Origin: Rhodanobacter sp. B04
GTDB taxonomy: Bacteria > Pseudomonadota > Gammaproteobacteria > Xanthomonadales > Rhodanobacteraceae
Length of the DNA: 64,000 bases
NCBI RefSeq assembly: GCF_002001125.1
Contig: NZ_MUNV01000026.1
Span: forward strand, 62,001-126,000
Direction: 5' to 3'
Shown here: in pieces, positions 29,048 to 39,093 of the stretch
Layout: the number at the start of each line of letters is the position of its first letter
How positions within the stretch are numbered: the stretch's first letter is position 1
Notes under the pieces: model-generated
The model's input: the letters and a program-made list of their open reading frames with translations, nothing else
Told to the model about the DNA's origin: nothing
Databases searched by the model: none
Position numbers and translations under genes: made by a program

Positions 29048-32000
29048 TCACTGGCCTGCGCTGCCGCCAAAACGATAGCTGGCTTCAATGAAGTAGGCGC
29101 GGCCGATCGGGTTGAACCAGCTCCTGGAGTAATACGGGTAGCTGGTCCAGGTGCTGTCCGGTGCCGGCTTCTTGTCGAACAGGTTGTCCACCACGAAGGT
29201 CAACGTGGCGCGCGGTGTGAAGCGGTAGTTGAATGACGCGTTGTACACGAAGGTGGGGCCGAGCCGCTGCGTGCCGTCGTAATTGGGCAGGCCGCCCAGG
29301 CGTGAGCCATGCACGGTGGTGGTGAACCTGCCCAGCGTCCAGGCCACCGAGTAGCCAGCCTTGCTGCGCGGGATCACATAGTCGTACAGGTCGGTGAGCT
29401 CGTTTACCGTGGGGTCGCCCTTGAACAGCTGCACCTTGTGGGTGGCGACATAGGTGAGGCCGAGGTTGAAATCGAACGTGCCCGCGTGCTGCGTTTCAAG
29501 CAGGTAGTGCGTGTTGAAGTCCACGCCGGAAGTGCGGTCGACCGCGGCATTGATCGGCAGCACGAGTACCGATGTGATGCCTTCCGGATTGCTGGGGGCG
29601 CTGGCGGAATTGCGTACAACCTGACTTAACACTTGCTGGCATAGCCCGGAGTTGATGTCGACCGGCACGCCGGCGGCCGTCTGTCCCAGCCGGCAGTCGG
29701 CCTCCTCGCGCAGGATGGTGTCGCTGCTCTGGTACTCCACTTCGTTGTTCAATTTGATGATGTAGTAGTCCGCGCTGATGTCCAGGTTGCGGACCGGCGA
29801 GTAGACGAAGCCATAGGTGAACGACTTGCTGGTTTCGTCCTTCAGCGTGGTGCTGCCATGGCTGCGGCCGTTGAATCCCACGTCACCATTGCTGCAATCA
29901 TCGTAGTAGTCGGGGCCGGACCCGGGTTCGTCGCGGCGGCACAGGTAGTAGTCGGTGCCGTCCGAACTCGAGCCGCTGAGTCCGGCATACAGGTAGGAAA
30001 GATCGGGGGCGCGGAAGCCGGTACCGGCCGAGCCGCGCAACAGCAGGCTGTCGAACGGACGATATTCGACGCCCAGCGAATAGGTGAACTTGCCCGCGGT
30101 GGTCGGGCCGTACTCGTAGCGGTCGTAGCGGCCCGCGGCGGTGAGGGTCAGCGTCGACAGCACTGGCGCACTGAATTCCACGCCCATGCCGGCATGATTG
30201 CGCGAGCCCACCGCGCCGGTGTTGTGCAGGCCGAAGTAGGTGCCGTCCAGCGACAACGGATCGGGTTTCAGTCCGTAATACTGGTTGCCGTATTCGGCGA
30301 CACCGGCGAAGCCGGCCGAGCCGCCCGGCAGGTCGAACAGGTCGGTATTCGTCATCGTCAGGCTGAAATTTTCTGCGCGGCTTTTGTCGTGATCGATCGA
30401 GTCCTGGGTGATCGAACGGAACTCGGCGACGGTGAGCGGGGTGTACAACCGGCTGATCGGCGCGTTGTAGATGTCATAGCCGCTGTCCGGGTCGATGCCC
30501 AGCGACGGGCCCAGGTACAGCGCCTGCGCCTTGGCCGAGATCAATGCCGGTTCCTTGCTCTCCAGTTCGTTCTGCGAATGTCCGAACAGCGCCTCGTAGG
30601 TCCAGCTGGTATCGGGGATGCTGCCCTTGATGCCGGTATTCAGCGACAACGTGTTGTTGATGTTCCTGATCAGGCCGGGGCCAAAGCCGCCGTTCTCCTC
30701 GATGGTGAAATACTTGCGCTGCCATTGCTCGACCTGGCCGGTGGCCTGGTTGTAGAACGGGATCGGCGTGGAATCGCCATTGAGCTGGTAGCTGTTCTGC
30801 CATTGCAGCGGCGTGTTGTAGCTGTCCTGGTGCGAAGTGGCCGCCTGCACATCGAGGAAGGCCTCCATGTTGTCGGTCAGGCGGTAGCTGGCGGTGCCAT
30901 AGAAATTGACCGCCTTGCGTCCGTTCTCCATGGTGCCGTAGCCCACATCCTTGTAACTGCCGCAGTAGTAACCGTAATTCCGGCGATAGGCGTAGACGAT
31001 CGAGCCGTGGTCAAGCGCGGACAATGCGTCGCAGGTGGCCTTGCCCGGATCGATGTAGTCGCCGTCCTCGTCGATACGCGTGAAGACCGGGCTGGCGGAA
31101 ATCCGGGAAGGATCTCCGGGAGCATCCAGGCGCGAATCGGTGAAACTGCGCTGGTAGCCCCACAGTGGCTGCTGATGGACGAACTCCACGCCGAAGACCG
31201 AGTCGAACTTGCCGCTGGAAAAACCGCTGGAGATCTGCAGGCGCTGCGAACTGCCGCCGCCGTGCTGCGTATCGCCCACGCGGAAATCCACGGTGGTGCC
31301 ATCGGCCTTCTTCTTCAGGATGAAGTTGATCACGCCGGATATGGCGTCCGAACCGTAGATCGCCGAAGCGCTGCCGCTGAGGATTTCCACGCGATCGATC
31401 AGCGAGGTGGGCAGGTTCGAGATATCCGTGAAATTGCTGTTGCCGCCGTACGATTGCGGGTAGTCGGCAATGCGCCGCCCATTCACCAGCACCAGCGTGT
31501 GGTTCGGGCCCAGCCCACGCAGGTCGACCGCCTGCGCGCCCGGCGAGAAGCCATTGGTGTTCTGGTTGTTGTCCAGCGCGCCGAGATTCTGGGTCAGCGA
31601 GGTCATCATGTCCGCGACGGTGGCGAAACCGTTGTTGGTGATGTCCCGCGCGGTGATGGTGGTGACTGGCGCTGGCCCCTCGATCTGGGCGCGAGGGATG
31701 CGTGAGCCGGTGACCTGGACCGCTTCGAGCTTGGTGGCGGTCTGCGGGTCGGCTGCGGCGGCAGCTGAAGGGTGGGTGGGGGTCGATCGCGGTGGCGGGG
31801 TATGCGGGTCGTTTGTCTTGAGGATCACCACGGCTCCGGAAGGATCGCGATGAACGGTGAAGCCCGTGCCGTCCAGCAGGCGTTTCAGTGCATCGTCCGT
31901 CGACAGCGCGCCATTCACGCCTTGCGTATGCAGTCCCTTGAGCTGGTCCGCCTGATAGATGAATTGTGCGCCGGACTGCGCGGCCAGGCTGTCGAGCGCG

Positions 32001-32116
32001 GCGACCAGATCGCCTGGCGGAATCCGGATCTGTCTGACGGTGTCGGCTTGTGCGTAAGCCGCGACGGATGCCGAGCAGGCCAGGGCCAGCAGCGTGGTGC
32101 GGAACGGACGGATCAT
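29048..32116 (-). CDS. STN-domain TonB-dependent outer-membrane receptor
   Basis: A 1022-residue receptor: signal peptide (about 1-24, ending YAQA), STN signalling domain (about 28-100; IRIPPGDLVAALDSLAAQSGAQFIYQ), plug (about 130-260; VTGSRIPR, DISNLPTSLIDRVEILSGSASAIYGSDAISGVINFI) and a 22-stranded beta-barrel to the end. Several extracellular cysteine pairs are present (for example CRRDE...YYDDC). An STN domain means that substrate binding signals to a FecR protein, and fecR and fecI genes lie immediately upstream in the same orientation. The ligand is not evident; the divergent secreted hydrolase suggests a peptide. A GAGGG ribosome site supports the ATG. Confidence 0.93.
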   Translation of the reverse strand: MIRPFRTTLLALACSASVAAYAQADTVRQIRIPPGDLVAALDSLAAQSGAQFIYQADQLKGLHTQGVNGALSTDDALKRLLDGTGFTVHRDPSGAVVILKTNDPHTPPPRSTPTHPSAAAAADPQTATKLEAVQVTGSRIPRAQIEGPAPVTTITARDITNNGFATVADMMTSLTQNLGALDNNQNTNGFSPGAQAVDLRGLGPNHTLVLVNGRRIADYPQSYGGNSNFTDISNLPTSLIDRVEILSGSASAIYGSDAISGVINFILKKKADGTTVDFRVGDTQHGGGSSQRLQISSGFSSGKFDSVFGVEFVHQQPLWGYQRSFTDSRLDAPGDPSRISASPVFTRIDEDGDYIDPGKATCDALSALDHGSIVYAYRRNYGYYCGSYKDVGYGTMENGRKAVNFYGTASYRLTDNMEAFLDVQAATSHQDSYNTPLQWQNSYQLNGDSTPIPFYNQATGQVEQWQRKYFTIEENGGFGPGLIRNINNTLSLNTGIKGSIPDTSWTYEALFGHSQNELESKEPALISAKAQALYLGPSLGIDPDSGYDIYNAPISRLYTPLTVAEFRSITQDSIDHDKSRAENFSLTMTNTDLFDLPGGSAGFAGVAEYGNQYYGLKPDPLSLDGTYFGLHNTGAVGSRNHAGMGVEFSAPVLSTLTLTAAGRYDRYEYGPTTAGKFTYSLGVEYRPFDSLLLRGSAGTGFRAPDLSYLYAGLSGSSSDGTDYYLCRRDEPGSGPDYYDDCSNGDVGFNGRSHGSTTLKDETSKSFTYGFVYSPVRNLDISADYYIIKLNNEVEYQSSDTILREEADCRLGQTAAGVPVDINSGLCQQVLSQVVRNSASAPSNPEGITSVLVLPINAAVDRTSGVDFNTHYLLETQHAGTFDFNLGLTYVATHKVQLFKGDPTVNELTDLYDYVIPRSKAGYSVAWTLGRFTTTVHGSRLGGLPNYDGTQRLGPTFVYNASFNYRFTPRATLTFVVDNLFDKKPAPDSTWTSYPYYSRSWFNPIGRAYFIEASYRFGGSAGQ

Positions 32117-32289
32117 GGTCACCCTCTCCCCAGGGTGGCGCGCCTGATGGCGCCATCGATTAGCGTGACGTATGGATGTCGCAAATCCCGCATGCCATGT
32201 TTGCGTCGGGCATCCCCGGGCACGCCGGGTCCGGATGGTGCATTGCTTCTTGCGGGTGGTTGGCTCGGGTGAGAATTCGCGACGCGGCG

Positions 32290-33390
32290 TTACCGGCGCT
32301 TCAGGACGATGGTCTTGTCACTGCGCACGGCTTGCACCGGGAAGCCCAGTTCGAGCAACCGCACGAAGCTGTCGGCATTGGACCAGCGGAAATTTCCGCC
32401 CACGCGAATGGCGCCGACCGAGGCGTCGCCGATGACGATCTTGCGGGTGTTGTAACGGTTGAATTCCGCGGCGGCGGCGGCCAGCGGCGTGTCGTGGAAG
32501 GAAATGAAGCCATTACGCCAGTTCAGGAGCTCTTCGGCCTGCTGCATCGAGCCGGATTGCACCACGACCCCGGTGTCGCTTGCCAATGCGATGCTGCCGG
32601 CTGGAAGCAGGGTGGTTGGCTGGCGATGTCCATCCGGCCCGTTGTCCGACTCCAGCCGCACCACGCCCTGGGTCACGATCACGCGCAGGTCCGCCGCATC
32701 GCGGCGCACGTCATAACGCGTGCCGACGGCAATCGCGCGGCGCTCGCCGGCGCTGACCACGAACGGCCGGTCGGGATCCTTGGCCACCTTGAAGAACGCC
32801 TCGCCCTGCTGCAGATCGATGCGGCGCTCGCCACGGGAAAGCGTGACAAGCATGCGGCTGTCACTGCTCAGGGTCACGACGGAACCATCGGCCAGCGGCA
32901 CATCCTGCAGGCCGCCAACGGCTGTGCGATAAAGCGCCTGATCCACCGCCGAGTAACGTCGCCAACCCAGGGCGAGTGACACGATCATCACCAGGGCGAC
33001 GGCACCGACGGCATAGCGAAGCAGGCGACGGCGGTTCTCCTTCGGTGGGCCGCTCATGAACCTTGCCGGGTTACTGCCAGTCGGCGCGTCGTGTTGCGAC
33101 CGATCGAGCTGTGCCTCAACCGTACCGTGCACTTCACGCGGGCCGTGAGACGGAAGCACGCCCCAGGTTCCGCGCGCAGGCACCACGCCGGCCGGCACGC
33201 CTGCACCCAAGGCCTTCAGGCGGTCGCTCTGCCGCCAGGCTGCATCGAGGCGCAGAAAAGCCACGCGATGGGCAACCGAGGCAGCCAGCCATGCATCCAG
33301 CTGGCTCTGGTCGTGCGCGGACCACGCGCCCGCGTCGCGCTTGGCCAGCCACGCGGAGGCAGTGAGTTCAATCTGCCTGCTGCTGGTCAT
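32290..33390 (-). CDS. FecR-type transmembrane anti-sigma factor
   Basis: A 366-residue single-pass protein. The cytoplasmic part starts with a DUF4880-like sigma-binding region (TASAWLAKRDAGAWSAHDQSQLDAWLAAS), followed by an unusually long Pro/Gly-rich linker. A membrane helix is at about 122-145. The periplasmic FecR domain has the pattern DGSVVTLSSDSRMLV, RRIDLQQGEAFFKVAKDPDRPFVV, and a C-terminal domain that contacts the receptor STN domain. It overlaps the sigma gene by 23 bases and should hold the sigma factor until the TonB receptor is occupied. The GGAGG ribosome site fixes the start. Confidence 0.92.
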   Translation of the reverse strand: MTSSRQIELTASAWLAKRDAGAWSAHDQSQLDAWLAASVAHRVAFLRLDAAWRQSDRLKALGAGVPAGVVPARGTWGVLPSHGPREVHGTVEAQLDRSQHDAPTGSNPARFMSGPPKENRRRLLRYAVGAVALVMIVSLALGWRRYSAVDQALYRTAVGGLQDVPLADGSVVTLSSDSRMLVTLSRGERRIDLQQGEAFFKVAKDPDRPFVVSAGERRAIAVGTRYDVRRDAADLRVIVTQGVVRLESDNGPDGHRQPTTLLPAGSIALASDTGVVVQSGSMQQAEELLNWRNGFISFHDTPLAAAAAEFNRYNTRKIVIGDASVGAIRVGGNFRWSNADSFVRLLELGFPVQAVRSDKTIVLKRR

Positions 33391-33955
33391 GAGCGCCTCC
33401 ATGTTCGATGCCGGCTGCAGCGTGACGTGGCGCGTGCTGCGCTTGGCCGCCGCCAAAAAAATAGTCGGCGATCAAGCGCATGCCCTTGGCGAGCTGTTTT
33501 TCCACGGTCTTCTCACCGATGCCCATGCGCATCGCCACTTCCTTTTGCGGCAGCTCCTCGACCCGGCGCAGCCAGACCGCCTCGCGACATCGGTCGGGCA
33601 GGCTGTCGAACGCTTCGGTCAGGCGCTTCAGTTCCTGGCGGGCGCTCAACCGGCGTTCCGGCGATATCTCATCTATCAGGACGTTCAGCGCATCCAGATC
33701 ACCCACGGCATCGATCGAGACGACCCGCCCGCGGCGCAGACGATCGGTCATCAGGTGGCGAGCGGTGGTGAACATGAAGGACTTCGGCATCGCCGGCCGT
33801 GCTTTCGCCGCGGCCTCGTAGACGCGTATGTAGATTTCCTGGCGCAGGTCATGGATCTCGTCGCGGCGATACCAGCTGCGCAGCAGATAGCGCATCAGCG
33901 CGCTCTCGTGCACCAGGATTTCGCGTATGAACCAGTTGTCGAGAGTGTCTTCCAC
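33368..33955 (-). CDS. FecI-type ECF sigma factor
   Basis: A 195-residue sigma-70 family protein with region 2 (about 15-75; LMRYLLRSWYRRDEIHDLRQEIYIRVYEA, KSFMFTTARHLMTDRLRR) and region 4 (about 110-165; LPDRCREAVWLRRVEELPQKEVAMRMGIGEKTVEKQLAKGM). It heads the sigma-FecR-TonB receptor operon. The start is a GTG; no better start is near. A His/Gln-rich tail after residue 170 is not part of the sigma fold and overlaps the fecR start. It is divergent from the secreted cyanophycinase-like gene, a plausible target. Confidence 0.92.
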   Translation of the reverse strand: MEDTLDNWFIREILVHESALMRYLLRSWYRRDEIHDLRQEIYIRVYEAAAKARPAMPKSFMFTTARHLMTDRLRRGRVVSIDAVGDLDALNVLIDEISPERRLSARQELKRLTEAFDSLPDRCREAVWLRRVEELPQKEVAMRMGIGEKTVEKQLAKGMRLIADYFFGGGQAQHAPRHAAAGIEHGGAHDQQQAD

Positions 33956-34147
33956 GACGGCGACAGTAACGCCAATCCGTCAGCGAAAGACAGCTGCGCG
34001 GCGCAGATGAGCCCGTGGCAGCGAATGTGCGCGACGGCGTGGGGGATCTGGCGTGTCCGTTCGTCCCGACCCAGATGAACTCCATGCAGTGACGTGCTGC
34101 GTGCACCCGAAAAATCACCATGCATCCCTTCGACGGAATATCGACTG
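33956..34147. promoter_or_regulatory. Divergent promoter region, sigma-FecR-receptor operon and cyanophycinase-like gene
   Basis: This 192-base gap must hold the promoters for both the leftward fecI-like operon and the rightward hydrolase gene. I could not identify a reliable -35/-10 pair by eye. Its position makes shared control of the two transcripts likely. Confidence 0.4.
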
Positions 34148-36145
34148 ATGATTTCGCTCAGCTATTTATCCGGTTCAGTTCGCGCCAGCTTTTCAGCCCT
34201 GCTGGCGTTGTGCCTGGTACTGGTCTGCATGGATGCCAGCGCGGCCTCGAAGAACCCGGCCGCCACGCGCAACGGTTACGAGTACTACCAGATCGGCGAC
34301 CTGAACGCGCCAAGGCCTGGCCATACCGAGGCGGCTCTGATGCTGATGGGCGGCGGCAAGTGGCCGAACAAGGCCTTCGCCTGGTTTGCGGCCAAGGGCG
34401 GTCACGGCCACGTCGTGATACTGCGTGCCTCCGGCGCCGATGAGATGCAGAAAGAGCTTTACACCGATATCGGCGGGGTGGCGTCGGTGCAGACGCTGGT
34501 GTTCCACAGTCGTGCGGCGGCCAGCGATCCGCAGGTGCTGGACATCGTGCGGCATGCCGACGGCATCTTCATTGCCGGCGGTGACCAGTCCAACTACGTG
34601 CGGTTCTGGAAAGGCACGCCGCTGAACGTCGCCCTGAATCAGCATGTTGCACATGGGAAGCCGATCGGCGGCACCAGCGCCGGCCTGGCCATCCTCGGTG
34701 GTTACGCCTATGGCGCGCTCGATGGCGGCAGCATGGAGTCGCAGGATGCGCTGCGCCATCCGCTCGGCAAGGGCATGACCCTGGTCGATGATTTCATGCA
34801 CCTGCCCTATCTGCAGCAGGTGATAACCGATACCCACTTCAATGCGCGCGGGCGGCTCGGACGGCTGATCGGCTTCGTCGCCAAGCTGCGGTACGAGGGG
34901 CATTCCGGCGTTGTCGGTCTCGGAGTGGATCAGGACGCGGCGCTCTGCGTCGACGGCAACGGCATCGGTCGCTTGTTCACGATCAACAACGGCTTTGCGT
35001 GGCTGGTGCGACCGGACGGCAAGCCGGTACGGATCGAGGGCGGCAAACCGCTGGACTATCCCGGTACGCGGGTGACCGGTATCGGCACGCAGAGCACGAT
35101 CGACCTGCGCGACCTGAGCGTGCACCGGCCGGTATTCGAGGCGCTCGCCGATGCACGTGACGGTGAATTGAACGTGCATGGCGAACATGCACCGGTGCTG
35201 GTGATCCACGGCGGCGCCGGCGTGGAGCGTGCTGGGATGACGCCGCAGATCGAGGCGAAGGCGCGCGCCGCGCTGGAGCTGGCGCTGCGCAACGGCTATG
35301 CGCAGCTGAAGTCGGGCAAGTCGGCCGTGGATGCGGTGACTGCCGCGATCACCGTGCTGGAGGATGATCCGTTGTTCAATGCCGGCAAGGGCGCGGTGTT
35401 CACGCATGACGGGAAAAACGAGCTCGATGCCTCAATCATGGACGGCTCGACGCTGGCGGCAGGCGCAGTGGCGGGAGTGCATCAGGTCAGGAATCCGATC
35501 CTGCTGGCGCGTGCGGTGATGGAGCACTCGCCGCACGTGATGATGGTCGGCAACGGCGCGGAAACCTTCGCCACGGAGCAGGGATTCAAGCTGGTCGATC
35601 CGTCGTATTTCCGCACCGACCGGCGTTGGCAGGAGTTGCAGCACGCGCTGAAGGACGATGCGGCCGGCGTGCCGCTGACCGAACGGCTGCTGGCGCTCAA
35701 GCACTTCGGCACCGTCGGCGCGCTCGCCCGCGACAGCCAGGGCCGACTTGCTGCCGGCACCTCGACCGGCGGCATGACCGACAAGCGATACGGTCGCGTG
35801 GGCGATTCGCCGATCGTCGGCGCGGGTAACTACGCCAACGTTGCTTGCGCGGTATCCGGCACGGGCTGGGGCGAGTACTACATCCGCGTTTCGGCCGCGC
35901 GCGAGATCTGCCTGCGCATGACCGAGTTGAACGAATCCGCCGAGCAGGCCGGCAAGGCGGTGATCAACGAAGAGATACCGCAGATGGGTGGCGATGGCGG
36001 CGCGATTATTTTGGGCGCCGACGGCAGCGTGTCGATGCCGTTCAACACCGAGGGCATGTACCGCGGCTGGATCGGTGCCGACGGCGTCCCGCATGTGGCG
36101 ATCTACGGCAGTGATCCGCTGGTGTTGCCTTCGGCGTCACGCTGA
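34148..36145 (+). CDS. Secreted cyanophycinase-isoaspartyl peptidase fusion
   Basis: A 665-residue protein with a Sec signal peptide (1 to about 33, ending ASA). Residues about 60-300 are an S51 cyanophycinase-like peptidase with nucleophile S177 in GGTSAGLAIL, FIAGGDQSNY and DTHFNARGRLGRL. Residues about 348-660 are an Ntn-type isoaspartyl peptidase/L-asparaginase: VLVIHGGAGV, predicted self-cleavage before T522 in HFGTVGALARD, GTSTGGMTDKRYGRVGDSPIVGAG. Cyanophycinase frees beta-Asp-Arg dipeptides and the second domain would split these to Asp and Arg, so one exported protein could do both steps. It is divergent from the FecI-FecR-TonB receptor operon. Substrate is inferred from domains. Confidence 0.88.
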   Translation: MISLSYLSGSVRASFSALLALCLVLVCMDASAASKNPAATRNGYEYYQIGDLNAPRPGHTEAALMLMGGGKWPNKAFAWFAAKGGHGHVVILRASGADEMQKELYTDIGGVASVQTLVFHSRAAASDPQVLDIVRHADGIFIAGGDQSNYVRFWKGTPLNVALNQHVAHGKPIGGTSAGLAILGGYAYGALDGGSMESQDALRHPLGKGMTLVDDFMHLPYLQQVITDTHFNARGRLGRLIGFVAKLRYEGHSGVVGLGVDQDAALCVDGNGIGRLFTINNGFAWLVRPDGKPVRIEGGKPLDYPGTRVTGIGTQSTIDLRDLSVHRPVFEALADARDGELNVHGEHAPVLVIHGGAGVERAGMTPQIEAKARAALELALRNGYAQLKSGKSAVDAVTAAITVLEDDPLFNAGKGAVFTHDGKNELDASIMDGSTLAAGAVAGVHQVRNPILLARAVMEHSPHVMMVGNGAETFATEQGFKLVDPSYFRTDRRWQELQHALKDDAAGVPLTERLLALKHFGTVGALARDSQGRLAAGTSTGGMTDKRYGRVGDSPIVGAGNYANVACAVSGTGWGEYYIRVSAAREICLRMTELNESAEQAGKAVINEEIPQMGGDGGAIILGADGSVSMPFNTEGMYRGWIGADGVPHVAIYGSDPLVLPSASR

Positions 36146-36163: not shown

Positions 36164-36553
36164 TCACGCGTCGCTGTCGCCCTCGATGATCCGGCGCTGC
36201 ATGCGATCCAGGTAGGCGTCGAGTTCCTGCGTACTGGTGAAAACCTCGTTCACCGGAACCGCCTTGACGATCTCGAACACCTTGCGCACCTGCGGCTGCG
36301 GGTTCAGCAGCAAGGTGTATCCGCCGCGGGCACGCATGCGCTTGCGGATCTGGGCGAAACTGCGCAGCCCGGCACTGCTGACGTATTCGAGTCCGGCCAG
36401 GTCGATCACCACGGTGCCGCCATCGTCGAGTTGCCGAAGGAGGGCCAGCATAGCCTCGTCGAGTTCGCCGAAGGTCATCGCGTCAAGACGACCGCCAACT
36501 TGCACGATGACACGATCGGGTGCCGGGAATTCACTGTGCAGACTGAGCGTCAT
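36164..36553 (-). CDS. STAS-domain anti-sigma factor antagonist
   Basis: A 129-residue STAS protein of the SpoIIAA/RsbV type. The phosphorylation site is the Ser pair in LEYVSSAGLRSFAQI (about 55-69). The antagonist in such partner switches binds a kinase/anti-sigma when unphosphorylated. Its start overlaps the stop of the phosphatase-kinase gene by four bases (ATGA), so the two are coupled and should work together. It converges on the hydrolase gene with 18 bases between stops. Confidence 0.9.
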   Translation of the reverse strand: MTLSLHSEFPAPDRVIVQVGGRLDAMTFGELDEAMLALLRQLDDGGTVVIDLAGLEYVSSAGLRSFAQIRKRMRARGGYTLLLNPQPQVRKVFEIVKAVPVNEVFTSTQELDAYLDRMQRRIIEGDSDA

Positions 36554-38865
36554 GATGAAGTTCCGTCCTGGTTCGGGTGAATGAATCGGAGCAGCAGATG
36601 ATTGCCATGGGCATGCCGTGTATAGCGCATTTCGCTGGTCATGGTGCGTGCGAGGTGAATGCCGAGACCGCCGATCTGCTCGCGGTCGGCAAGGTCGCCG
36701 GGGAGGCTTGGATCGGGCGGGTGCATGGGATCGAAGGCAATGCCGTCATCGATCAACTCGACCATGACGGCATCCGGTCCGGGATGCAGCAGGACGCGGA
36801 TCTGGCCAGAACGACCGTCGGGATAGCCGTACTCGACCGTGTTGACCAGGAGTTCTTCCAGCACGAGGCGTACGTCGCTACGCAACGAGGGCGCCACGCC
36901 GGCTTCCTGCAGCAGGTGCTCGCAGCGATCCAGTCCGACGAATACATCCTCCAGCTGGCCGGCGATGCATACCTCGGTGTGCGATTGCGCGGCACCATGC
37001 CAGGCCAGTGCCAGCAGGGTGATGTCATCGGCCTGCACGGCATCGGCCACGAAGCGATCGACATCACCCAGCAGCCGTTCGATATAGCCCGCGGTGGAGG
37101 CGGTCGCGGGCATCTGTGCAAGGCATTCCACGGTGCGTTCGATGCCATACATATGCTGATGATCGTCGCTCGCCTCGGTAATGCCATCGGTATACATCAG
37201 CAGGGTCTCGCCCTGGTGCAGACGCAGGTGGTGTTCCGGATAGTCTGAATCCTCATACAGCCCGAGCACGGCGCCCGTGGCGAAATTCAGCAGCTTCGGT
37301 GTGCCTTGGCCACACAGAATGGGTGGTTCATGCCCGGCGCTGGCCAGCACCAGGTTGCCGCTATTCGTGTCGAGCAAACCGCACAACAGGGTGACGAACA
37401 TGCAGCTGTCGTTGCCTCGGCAAAGTTCGAGATTGAGCAGCCGCAGGAGATTCTGCGGAGTCTGTGCGCGAGGCGCCAGCGCCTTGGCCAGGGTGATGGT
37501 CTGTGCCATGAACAAGGCGGCCGGAATGCCCTTGTCGGAGACGTCGCCGACCATCACGAAGAAGCGTTCAGGATCGAGCATGAAATAGCTGTAGAGGTCG
37601 CCGCCGACCGCCCGTGCCGGGCGCAGCGCCGCATGCAGTTCGAAGTGTGCGCAGACGGCGTCGAGGTAGTGCTCGCTCGGCAGCAGGCCGATCTGGATCT
37701 GGTGAGCGATTTCAAGTTCACTGGCCAGCCGCTGCTTTTCCCGTGCGACCCGCGCGAGGTCCTGCAGATGCAGCGCGAGTTCGTGGCGCATCTGATCGAA
37801 CGACAGGGTAAGACGTCCCACTTCGTCATGGCGACTGGTTGGCGGCAGTTCGAAATCCAGTTCGCCGCGGGCGACATGCTCGGCTCGGTCGGCCAGCACG
37901 CCCAGCGGCGCCATCGTGCGGCGGATGGTCAACAACGTGATCAGGGCCACGCCAAGCAGGGCGAGCATGCCAAGCAGCAGACCCCACAGGAAGATCCGCC
38001 GCACGCCGGCATAGATCCGGATCTCCGGCACCACCAGGCCGAGTCGCCAATGGGTGCCTTCGATCGGCGCGGAATAGACCCACACGGCACCATGCACCTG
38101 CGGGTTCTGTGCGACCGGCAGGCGCACGGACTCGGCCTGGTCGCTGGCCACCGCGTTGAGCAGCTCCGGCGTGCCGCGCTTGCCCACCAGTACGGGATTG
38201 TCGTGCGCCAGGTAGTCGCCATCGCTGTCGATCACGAAGACATAGGCGCCTTCCGGCTTGTCCAGATGTCCCAGGACCTGATGCAACCAATCGAGCGTGA
38301 CATCGGCATTGATGATGCCGATGGGGTGTCCTGCACGGCTGATGGCGACCGAATAGTTGATCAGCTGCCGCTGCCGTGACAGTGACAGGAACGGGCGCTG
38401 CCAGCAGCCAGCCGAACAACTCAGTCCGCCCAGGAACCAGTTGCTGTTCCAGTAAGGCCTGGCATCACTGGACAGGTCCCGACTGGCCAACGCGCCATGG
38501 TCCAGGCGGCTCACGAAGGGCGAGTAGGGGCGGGCGTCGACCGGGTCCGATGACGGTTTGAAGGCGGCAGCCAGTCCGTCGATGTCGCGATTGGCCTGCA
38601 AGGTGTCGCGCAACAGCGGTTCGGCACTGTCCTGCCGCGTGGCGATGATGGTCGCGAGCATCTGCGTCGAAATGGCGACGCGGTCGATTCGCGCCTGGAT
38701 CTCACTGCCGGCGCTGGCGGCCAGGGCGGCGGCTTCGTGATGGGTGAGCTGCAGGATCTGCGCGCGGGTGAGGCTGAGCAGCAAAGTGCCGATGGCAGCT
38801 AACACCAGGGTCGAGCCGGCGAGAACCCATAGCGCCATTCGCGATGCGATGCTTCGCAAGACCAT
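36550..38865 (-). CDS. Membrane sensor PP2C (RsbU-like) phosphatase with C-terminal RsbW-like ATPase domain
   Basis: A 771-residue protein: membrane helix (about 10-33), periplasmic Cache-type sensor (about 35-285), second helix (about 290-314), HAMP (about 315-368), SpoIIE/PP2C phosphatase (about 405-620; AVGGDLYSYFML, VGDVSDKGIPAALFMA, YTDGITEA, ADDIT) and HATPase_c anti-sigma kinase (about 635-765; N-box LEELLVNTVEYGYPD, DDGIAFDP, GGLGIHL). It joins phosphatase and kinase of a partner-switch in one chain, with the STAS antagonist encoded next. The ATG is preceded by a G9 run at the ribosome site. Confidence 0.9.
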   Translation of the reverse strand: MVLRSIASRMALWVLAGSTLVLAAIGTLLLSLTRAQILQLTHHEAAALAASAGSEIQARIDRVAISTQMLATIIATRQDSAEPLLRDTLQANRDIDGLAAAFKPSSDPVDARPYSPFVSRLDHGALASRDLSSDARPYWNSNWFLGGLSCSAGCWQRPFLSLSRQRQLINYSVAISRAGHPIGIINADVTLDWLHQVLGHLDKPEGAYVFVIDSDGDYLAHDNPVLVGKRGTPELLNAVASDQAESVRLPVAQNPQVHGAVWVYSAPIEGTHWRLGLVVPEIRIYAGVRRIFLWGLLLGMLALLGVALITLLTIRRTMAPLGVLADRAEHVARGELDFELPPTSRHDEVGRLTLSFDQMRHELALHLQDLARVAREKQRLASELEIAHQIQIGLLPSEHYLDAVCAHFELHAALRPARAVGGDLYSYFMLDPERFFVMVGDVSDKGIPAALFMAQTITLAKALAPRAQTPQNLLRLLNLELCRGNDSCMFVTLLCGLLDTNSGNLVLASAGHEPPILCGQGTPKLLNFATGAVLGLYEDSDYPEHHLRLHQGETLLMYTDGITEASDDHQHMYGIERTVECLAQMPATASTAGYIERLLGDVDRFVADAVQADDITLLALAWHGAAQSHTEVCIAGQLEDVFVGLDRCEHLLQEAGVAPSLRSDVRLVLEELLVNTVEYGYPDGRSGQIRVLLHPGPDAVMVELIDDGIAFDPMHPPDPSLPGDLADREQIGGLGIHLARTMTSEMRYTRHAHGNHLLLRFIHPNQDGTSS

Positions 38866-38871
38866 GCGGTG

Positions 38872-38880
38872 CCCCCCCCC
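38872..38880 (-). repeat. G9 homopolymer at the phosphatase-kinase ribosome-binding site
   Basis: Nine consecutive G on the coding (minus) strand end six bases before the ATG, exactly where the Shine-Dalgarno base-pairing would occur. Homopolymers of this length in high-GC genomes are prone to slippage and could vary translation of the downstream sensor between cells. Confidence 0.6.
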
Positions 38881-38979
38881 GTCCTGTTCTGCATCTAGCC
38901 ATGAAGCGATGTCGGCTGCAAGGCGGTGTGTGGCAACTGGGGTATGGCTGCCAGGGATGGCCTGAATGGGCCTTTGCCT

Positions 38980-39093
38980 GTCATTCCAGCGAACCCCGAA
39001 CTGGGGGCAAGAGCTGGAAACCAGCGTATTCAGCGACCTGCAACGGCCCTGGATCCCAGCTCTTGCCCCCAGTTCGGGGTTCACTGGGGTGAC
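38980..39093. repeat. Large REP-type palindrome
   Basis: Two arms of about 45 bases are near-perfect reverse complements (cores GAACCCCGAACTGGGGGCAA and TTGCCCCCAGTTCGGGGTTC), flanking a 24-base loop. A shortened third fragment, GGATCTTGCCCCCAG, is at 39137-39151. The outer ends GTCATTCCAGC and ACTGGGGTGAC resemble the tips of Xanthomonadales REP elements. It fills the gap between the divergent phosphatase and thioesterase genes and is not coding. Confidence 0.75.

Follow-up and report, generated by a model that had tools for sequence, protein, structure and literature searches.

A conserved surface-signalled locus of Rhodanobacter sp. B04, probably for uptake and digestion of a cyanophycin-like beta-aspartyl polymer

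Cyanophycin is too large a polymer to pass through porins, and the open literature searched hardly describes how it is taken up. A 'cyanophycin utilization locus' is attributed to Ben Hania et al. (2017), as cited in PMC10206079. According to the available part of the citing text, a cyanophycinase-type enzyme, an isoaspartyl dipeptidase and a transporter are clustered there, and the cluster is read as scavenging external cyanophycin. In Citromicrobium sp. JLT1363, a cyanophycinase gene was reported in 2012 to have a TonB receptor as its neighbour, with cyanophycin as the inferred substrate (PMC3400609, available part). In FecI-FecR-FecA signalling, a sigma factor, a FecR protein and a receptor with an STN domain are encoded in one operon and form a transmembrane relay. 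Here we describe a locus at positions 29048-36145 of a 64,000-nucleotide stretch from Rhodanobacter sp. B04 (the whole stretch analysed is called the window). It combines a FecI-like sigma factor, a FecR-type sensor and a TonB-dependent receptor with a divergent hydrolase, in which a cyanophycinase-like S51 domain is fused to an isoaspartyl peptidase (IaaA) domain. We consider it probable, with moderate confidence, that the locus is a self-contained, surface-signalled module that takes up and digests a beta-aspartyl polymer from outside the cell, cyanophycin or a close isomer being the likeliest candidate.

At the gene level, the window shows the clustering that defines the cyanophycin utilization locus, the definition being taken second-hand from the available part of the citing text. 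Unlike in that locus, as it is described there, the hydrolases of the window are fused and apparently exported, a TonB receptor with STN serves as the transporter, and the sigma and FecR genes lie between them with shared promoter-like motifs. The cited locus has IadA, whereas the window has IaaA. The receptor-cyanophycinase adjacency and the substrate inference are the same as for Citromicrobium sp. JLT1363, whose account, in its available part, describes no sigma/FecR pair, fused dipeptidase, promoter or wider conservation; the word 'FecR' is absent from the text of PMC3400609. In comparison with FecI-FecR-FecA, the cargo of the window receptor would be non-iron, the exported hydrolase gene appears to have the same sigma-dependent motif, and the sensing cassette is either there as a whole or missing as a whole. 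The extracellular cyanophycinase CphE of Pseudomonas is likewise an exported S51 enzyme with GXSXG; compared by the description in the available part of PMC3235067, CphEal is given a Ser-His-Glu triad, whereas the window protein has Gln and a fused IaaA. Neither the sigma-controlled form nor an S51-IaaA fusion was found in the open literature, as far as its texts were available and with subscription papers outside the search, and the words 'fusion' and 'fused' are absent from PMC10206079. The opinion of the initial annotation that such a system is little described is partly right, as the Citromicrobium adjacency and the cyanophycin utilization locus were already on record.

The receptor gene (29048-32122, minus strand) encodes STN, plug and barrel according to Pfam; its listed start is GTG, and an in-frame ATG is located just inside at 32116. 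The genes of the FecR-type anti-sigma/sensor protein (32290-33390, minus strand; Pfam FecR 3.6e-19, DUF4880 9.2e-6) and of the FecI-like extracytoplasmic function (ECF) sigma factor (33368-33955, minus strand) complete an operon-like run. The sigma factor matches Pfam Sigma70_r2 and r4_2 (regions 2 and 4), and scores 76 bits against TIGR02937 (cut-off 42.9). The sigma and FecR genes overlap by 23 bases, taking the FecR ATG at 33390. The hydrolase gene (34148-36145, plus strand) is divergent, and 192 bases lie between its ATG at 34148 and the start codon of the sigma gene. The 665-residue product (Pfam Peptidase_S51 2.1e-9, Asparaginase_2 4.2e-111) is apparently Sec-exported; a Sec-type signal peptide is evident by eye, no predictor having been run. 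All four genes, with their order, overlap and divergent gap, were found as first annotated.

The arrangement is not due to chance, as it recurs in many genera of Lysobacterales and Alphaproteobacteria. Genomes were scanned with an S51 profile, and the best 80 of 570 relatives, mainly Lysobacterales and Alphaproteobacteria, were combined with 33 neighbourhoods from family genomes and the window. Twelve duplicates were dropped from the resulting 114 loci, and 102 unique loci were used. A receptor homologue is divergent from the S51 gene in 90 of the 94 unique loci with at least 6.5 kb of upstream sequence. For a family census, S51 and the receptor were sought independently of each other in 147 genomes, so that resemblance does not select the loci. 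The matches listed comprise 43 S51 places and 49 receptor places, and among them 36 of the 43 exported S51 genes (in 41 genomes) have a receptor within 8 kb. Contig ends account for six of the seven misses; the only real one is in a genome with a second, linked copy. In a sample of 398 genomes of the phylum, 11 matches were obtained outside the window: eight have a receptor (G014 included), one lies at a contig end and includes sigma and a portion of FecR, and the remaining two, distant S51 genes of 31-36% identity, lack a receptor. In contrast, of 15 loci in 13 genomes that were picked by the cyanophycinase model, 13 of them scoring above its cut-off, only two matched the receptor profile, L217 and, more weakly, L228. 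The fetched stretch contains ychF or tuf at 45 of the 102 loci and neither gene at 57; therefore the pairing is not bound to one genomic site. The linkage of receptor and hydrolase in relatives, on which the initial annotation had made its reading depend, is strongly conserved.

The sigma and FecR genes are both present (48 loci) or both absent in the 102 loci. Among 94 receptor loci, the 45 receptors accompanied by sigma/FecR align from residue 34 or earlier, STN included, whereas the 49 receptors without sigma/FecR all begin at 131-135 and none reaches the STN region. L064 is counted among the 45, though its sigma factor is only 29% identical. The Pfam STN domain was detected in 44/45 receptors with sigma/FecR and in 0/48 scanned without (48 of the 49; the truncated sequence of L108 was left out). 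On a quick barrel-only tree, for which the program warned of long branches, both traits change seven times and always together, at least five times on well-supported branches. The signalling relay of STN, FecR and FecI, taken as established when the locus was first annotated, is backed by this joint presence and absence and by the shared promoter-like motifs described below. Together with matching control sites, the sensing parts appear to enter and leave the locus as a single unit.

The same motif, GGGA-N15-CGTC, is located between FecR and the receptor and between sigma and the hydrolase. In the window, the receptor-side copy is GCGGGAT-N12-TACGTC (32167-32191, minus strand; G000:C22:94167-94191), with two mismatches to the consensus. 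The hydrolase-side copy, GGGGGAT-N12-TTCGTC (34041-34065, plus strand), is the only zero-mismatch match in the 3.8-Mb genome. The strict motif occurs on the receptor side in 39 and on the hydrolase side in 37 of the 45 loci with sigma (41 and 44 for the relaxed form), and in 0.2-0.4% of shuffled sequences. At the loci without sigma, the strict motif was found in 0/49 and the relaxed motif in 3/49. Elsewhere in the same 45 loci, 30 more strict matches occur in approximately 1.46 million bases, counting both strands. Six loci carry a distant sigma factor, 24-29% identical to that of the window. The first motif is absent on both sides in the four of them tested, and a second motif, AAA[AT]-N13-CGT[CT], is present in all ten regions examined across the six (0.55% of shuffles). 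Four of the six loci served to define this second motif, its end was loosened to CGT[CT], and two loci contribute the hydrolase side only. None of the 44 + 44 regions taken from loci with the usual sigma contains it. Other FecI-type trios occur near four Sphingomonas loci, of which two are near-identical, and the first motif does not stand upstream of the receptor of these trios. As the shared motif stands at both genes, is absent without sigma and is swapped with a distant sigma, the sigma factor probably transcribes both the receptor gene and the hydrolase gene, and the motifs are candidate promoters. A genome-wide regulon was also sought with the first motif and given up: with up to two mismatches, 116 matches were obtained against 31 for the reversed pattern, and therefore only the local sites are claimed.

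The S51 domain (34265-35167, plus strand) was compared by alignment to Synechocystis CphB, with the numbering taken from S132 in the title of 7UQW. The nucleophile Ser177, His230 and three Arg are kept; Gln262 stands at the third triad position, and Thr229 at the position of CphB Gln173. Across the 102 loci, Ser, His, Asp228 and the three Arg, including the equivalent of CphB Arg178, are invariant. In the available part of PMC12661447, His174 and Arg178 of CphB are reported to be necessary for substrate binding. The triad acid is Glu in 88 loci, giving a full Ser-His-Glu triad, and Gln in 14, with two changes on the tree. Thr (73 loci) or Ser (29 loci) occupies the position of CphB Gln173. Using Foldseek, the first half of the predicted fusion structure was matched to 3EN0, 7UQW and 7UQV with target template modelling (TM) scores of 0.76-0.82 at 18-21% identity; the predicted S51 half has the cyanophycinase fold. 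The CphB adjoining the CphA of the host genome itself scores far above the cyanophycinase cut-off. According to their scores below that cut-off and their residue pattern, the exported S51 proteins form what looks like a separate exported subfamily.

In the IaaA domain (35192-36106, plus strand), which belongs to the N-terminal nucleophile (Ntn) hydrolases, autocleavage is predicted before Thr522 (codon 35711-35713). Thr522, at the Gly-Thr cleavage site, aligns with the residue that opens the beta subunit in solved structures, and this Thr nucleophile is invariant in 29 S51-IaaA fusions. The IaaA half is 50-51% identical to E. coli EcAIII according to Foldseek (50% for 2ZAK), and scores 319 bits against the NCBIfam equivalog PRK10226, below the cut-off of 567. 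The predicted model has a low predicted local distance difference test (pLDDT) score over much of residues 412-559; since this half is poorly modelled, its assignment rests on sequence. Judged in this way, the IaaA half looks intact. The hydrolase was first annotated with both activities needed to turn cyanophycin into Asp and Arg, which was too strong, since the S51 half has Gln262 and a score under the cut-off. Among the 102 loci, IaaA is fused in 29 and adjacent in 38, that is, fused or adjacent in 67. A second IaaA is encoded elsewhere in the host genome (L044 7789-8835, G000:C26); it is approximately 70% identical to the fused half and has, by eye, an apparent signal peptide of its own.

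Asp, Arg and beta-Asp-Arg are small enough to pass porins. As the dipeptidase is fused as well, no product would therefore need TonB. The TonB receptor suggests a larger cargo, and the hydrolase would therefore be placed behind it, in the periplasm. The initial annotation had the receptor import a breakdown product of the hydrolase. We changed this proposal, because a periplasmic hydrolase behind an importer of polymer or oligomer fits better, and a polymer or oligomer is favoured as the cargo over a dipeptide. In the mechanism we propose, the external polymer, cyanophycin or a close isomer, would be released by lysed cells. The receptor would bind its chains or oligomers outside, and STN would signal through FecR. 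The freed sigma factor would then transcribe the receptor gene and the divergent hydrolase gene from the matching promoters, and the receptor would carry the chains into the periplasm. There the S51 half would cut the backbone to beta-Asp-Arg, and the fused IaaA half would split the dipeptide to Asp and Arg, followed by inner-membrane uptake.

The presence of IaaA in 67/102 loci, the arrangement at L228 and the cyanophycin genes of the host point to a beta-aspartyl, arginine-rich cargo. L228 (2190-9549), from another gammaproteobacterial family, encodes a 591-residue S51 protein with an apparent signal peptide, and a receptor is divergent from it. It also encodes IadA (466.3 over 331.25) and a YfcC 'putative basic amino acid antiporter' (671.9 over 500). 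L228 is an independent arrangement, an alternative build of the same idea. In the host genome, one strand encodes in a row IadA, CphB and CphA, each of which scores above its cut-off, and a CphA-like protein of shorter length (L073 6852-13773, G000:C11); therefore the genome can probably make and break the polymer itself. Exported S51 genes were found in 18/25 genomes with CphA against 23/122 without, and within the genus of the window in 2/5 against 3/6. As this co-occurrence is confounded by kinship, it is not used as proof. At L217 (8159-12713), a receptor paralogue, 38% identical to the window receptor, is divergent from a cphB-cphA operon at a distance of up to approximately 1 kb; this is a weak case, and a tRNA-Arg gene lies in the gap. 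In G099, of the same genus, a receptor match lies approximately 2 kb from a CphA match.

Several observations weigh against this explanation of the locus. The triad acid, Glu in Synechocystis CphB, is Gln262 in the window copy and also Gln in 13 other loci. The S51 domain of the window scores 90.9 bits against the cyanophycinase cut-off of 126.6 (TIGR02069), and six other exported relatives, scored as hit spans, reach 93-102 bits, also under 126.6. IaaA was not found beside 35/102 S51 genes, a few of which are at contig ends, and the IaaA and IadA enzymes of cyanophycin clusters are promiscuous according to the available part of PMC10206079. The receptor resembles no receptor of known peptide ligand among the 50 solved chains listed. 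Four S51 genes that are close relatives lack an adjacent receptor, though their flanks are long enough to show one. The tree test of the coupling comes to five independent pairs (sign test, p = 0.06). Both motifs were derived from the same sequences on which they were counted; in three held-out regions, one is a strict fit, the second fits the relaxed form, and the third is a near match by eye.

Some of these points would suit a module of the same build and regulation with other beta-aspartyl material as its cargo, such as isoaspartyl peptides of aged protein, pseudo-cyanophycin or an aspartate-rich polymer. IaaA would then be the main enzyme, and S51 a modified exopeptidase or a binding domain. 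Besides the Gln in the window lineage, the low S51 score and the IaaA promiscuity, the Thr or Ser at the CphB Gln173 position in all loci and the Foldseek match to 7UQV, a 'pseudo-CphB', are in its favour. We nevertheless regard this explanation as rather unlikely. The invariance of Ser, His, the three Arg and Asp228, even where the triad acid is Gln, argues that S51 activity is kept, and most loci have the full triad. Some loci consist of S51 and receptor with no IaaA beside them, and at L228 a putative antiporter of basic amino acids is encoded in addition.

It is very unlikely that the receptor imports an iron chelate or an unrelated nutrient, the hydrolase being adjacent for no functional reason or processing a peptide siderophore. 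FecI/FecR/STN systems are mostly described for iron carriers (PMC9249621 and PMC12772443, available parts), and receptors for siderophores, B12 and heme rank highest among the solved folds. However, the receptor is only 11-16% identical to the 50 solved chains listed, and its fold is generic. The initial annotation had named clustering of the receptor with siderophore transporters of known ligand as a refutation of its reading; among those chains, the receptor groups with no one receptor of known ligand. The iron-type members have Fur control of the sigma gene, whereas no Fur box was detected in the window gap. Using one Xanthomonas consensus, the best match in the sigma/hydrolase gap of the window was 11 of 19, and in the gaps of the 45 loci none reached 13 of 19, which is no better than shuffled sequence. 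The motif common to receptor and hydrolase, and the pairing conserved in gamma- and alphaproteobacteria in differing surroundings, also argue against an iron carrier. Scavenging or detoxification of a peptide antibiotic with an isoaspartyl bond is highly improbable: lasso isopeptidase clusters of the AtxE type also combine a TonB transporter, a sigma/anti-sigma pair and a side-chain amide hydrolase (PMC9266682, available part), and the S51 protein MccG of microcin C resistance cleaves an isoaspartyl nucleotide (PMC9239234, available part), but lasso isopeptidases are of the prolyl-oligopeptidase type, unrelated to the S51 and Asparaginase_2 (Ntn) hydrolase of the window, the S51-IaaA pair suits conversion of a polymer to amino acids, and the window flanks read as housekeeping by translation, lasso synthesis genes not having been searched for.

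With uptake and digestion of a beta-aspartyl polymer as the preferred reading, a wider proposal can be made, which we hold to be evenly balanced between right and wrong. The locus would represent a widespread, dedicated outer-membrane import system for cyanophycin-type polymer in Lysobacterales and Alphaproteobacteria. It would consist of a TonB receptor family of its own and a new subfamily of exported cyanophycinase-like proteins. Sigma, FecR, STN and the matching promoters at both genes would make up a detachable cassette for sensing, swapped in and out as one unit and even replaced by a distant sigma. The conserved set offers a defined receptor family, enzyme and switch, which are open to immediate testing. 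At loci that are otherwise equivalent, STN, FecR and sigma are present or missing together, and the promoter-like sites at both genes track the identity of sigma; this amounts to a natural experiment on the wiring of cell-surface signalling to a non-iron nutrient system.

Some variants of the receptor were observed. In five Rhodanobacter-type loci (L076, L077, L079, L032 and L034), the fusion is 76-80% identical to that of the window and the receptors are 51-52% identical, and the receptor barrels sit in a different clade from the window barrel; therefore the receptor seems to have been replaced. Tandem receptors are located beside S51 at L190 (362-6251) and L191 (160-6093); one adjoins FecR and has the STN reach, and the other begins at the plug. 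An S9 peptidase was considered as a receptor partner and rejected, since long matches were confined to three loci, two of which share a contig, and all others were partial matches of less than 33%. Downstream of the hydrolase in the window (36164-39084), there are a small protein reading by eye as an anti-anti-sigma factor and a SpoIIE phosphatase with Cache and HAMP domains. The SpoIIE gene is kept beside the module in three relatives of the same genus (L031, L032 and L034).

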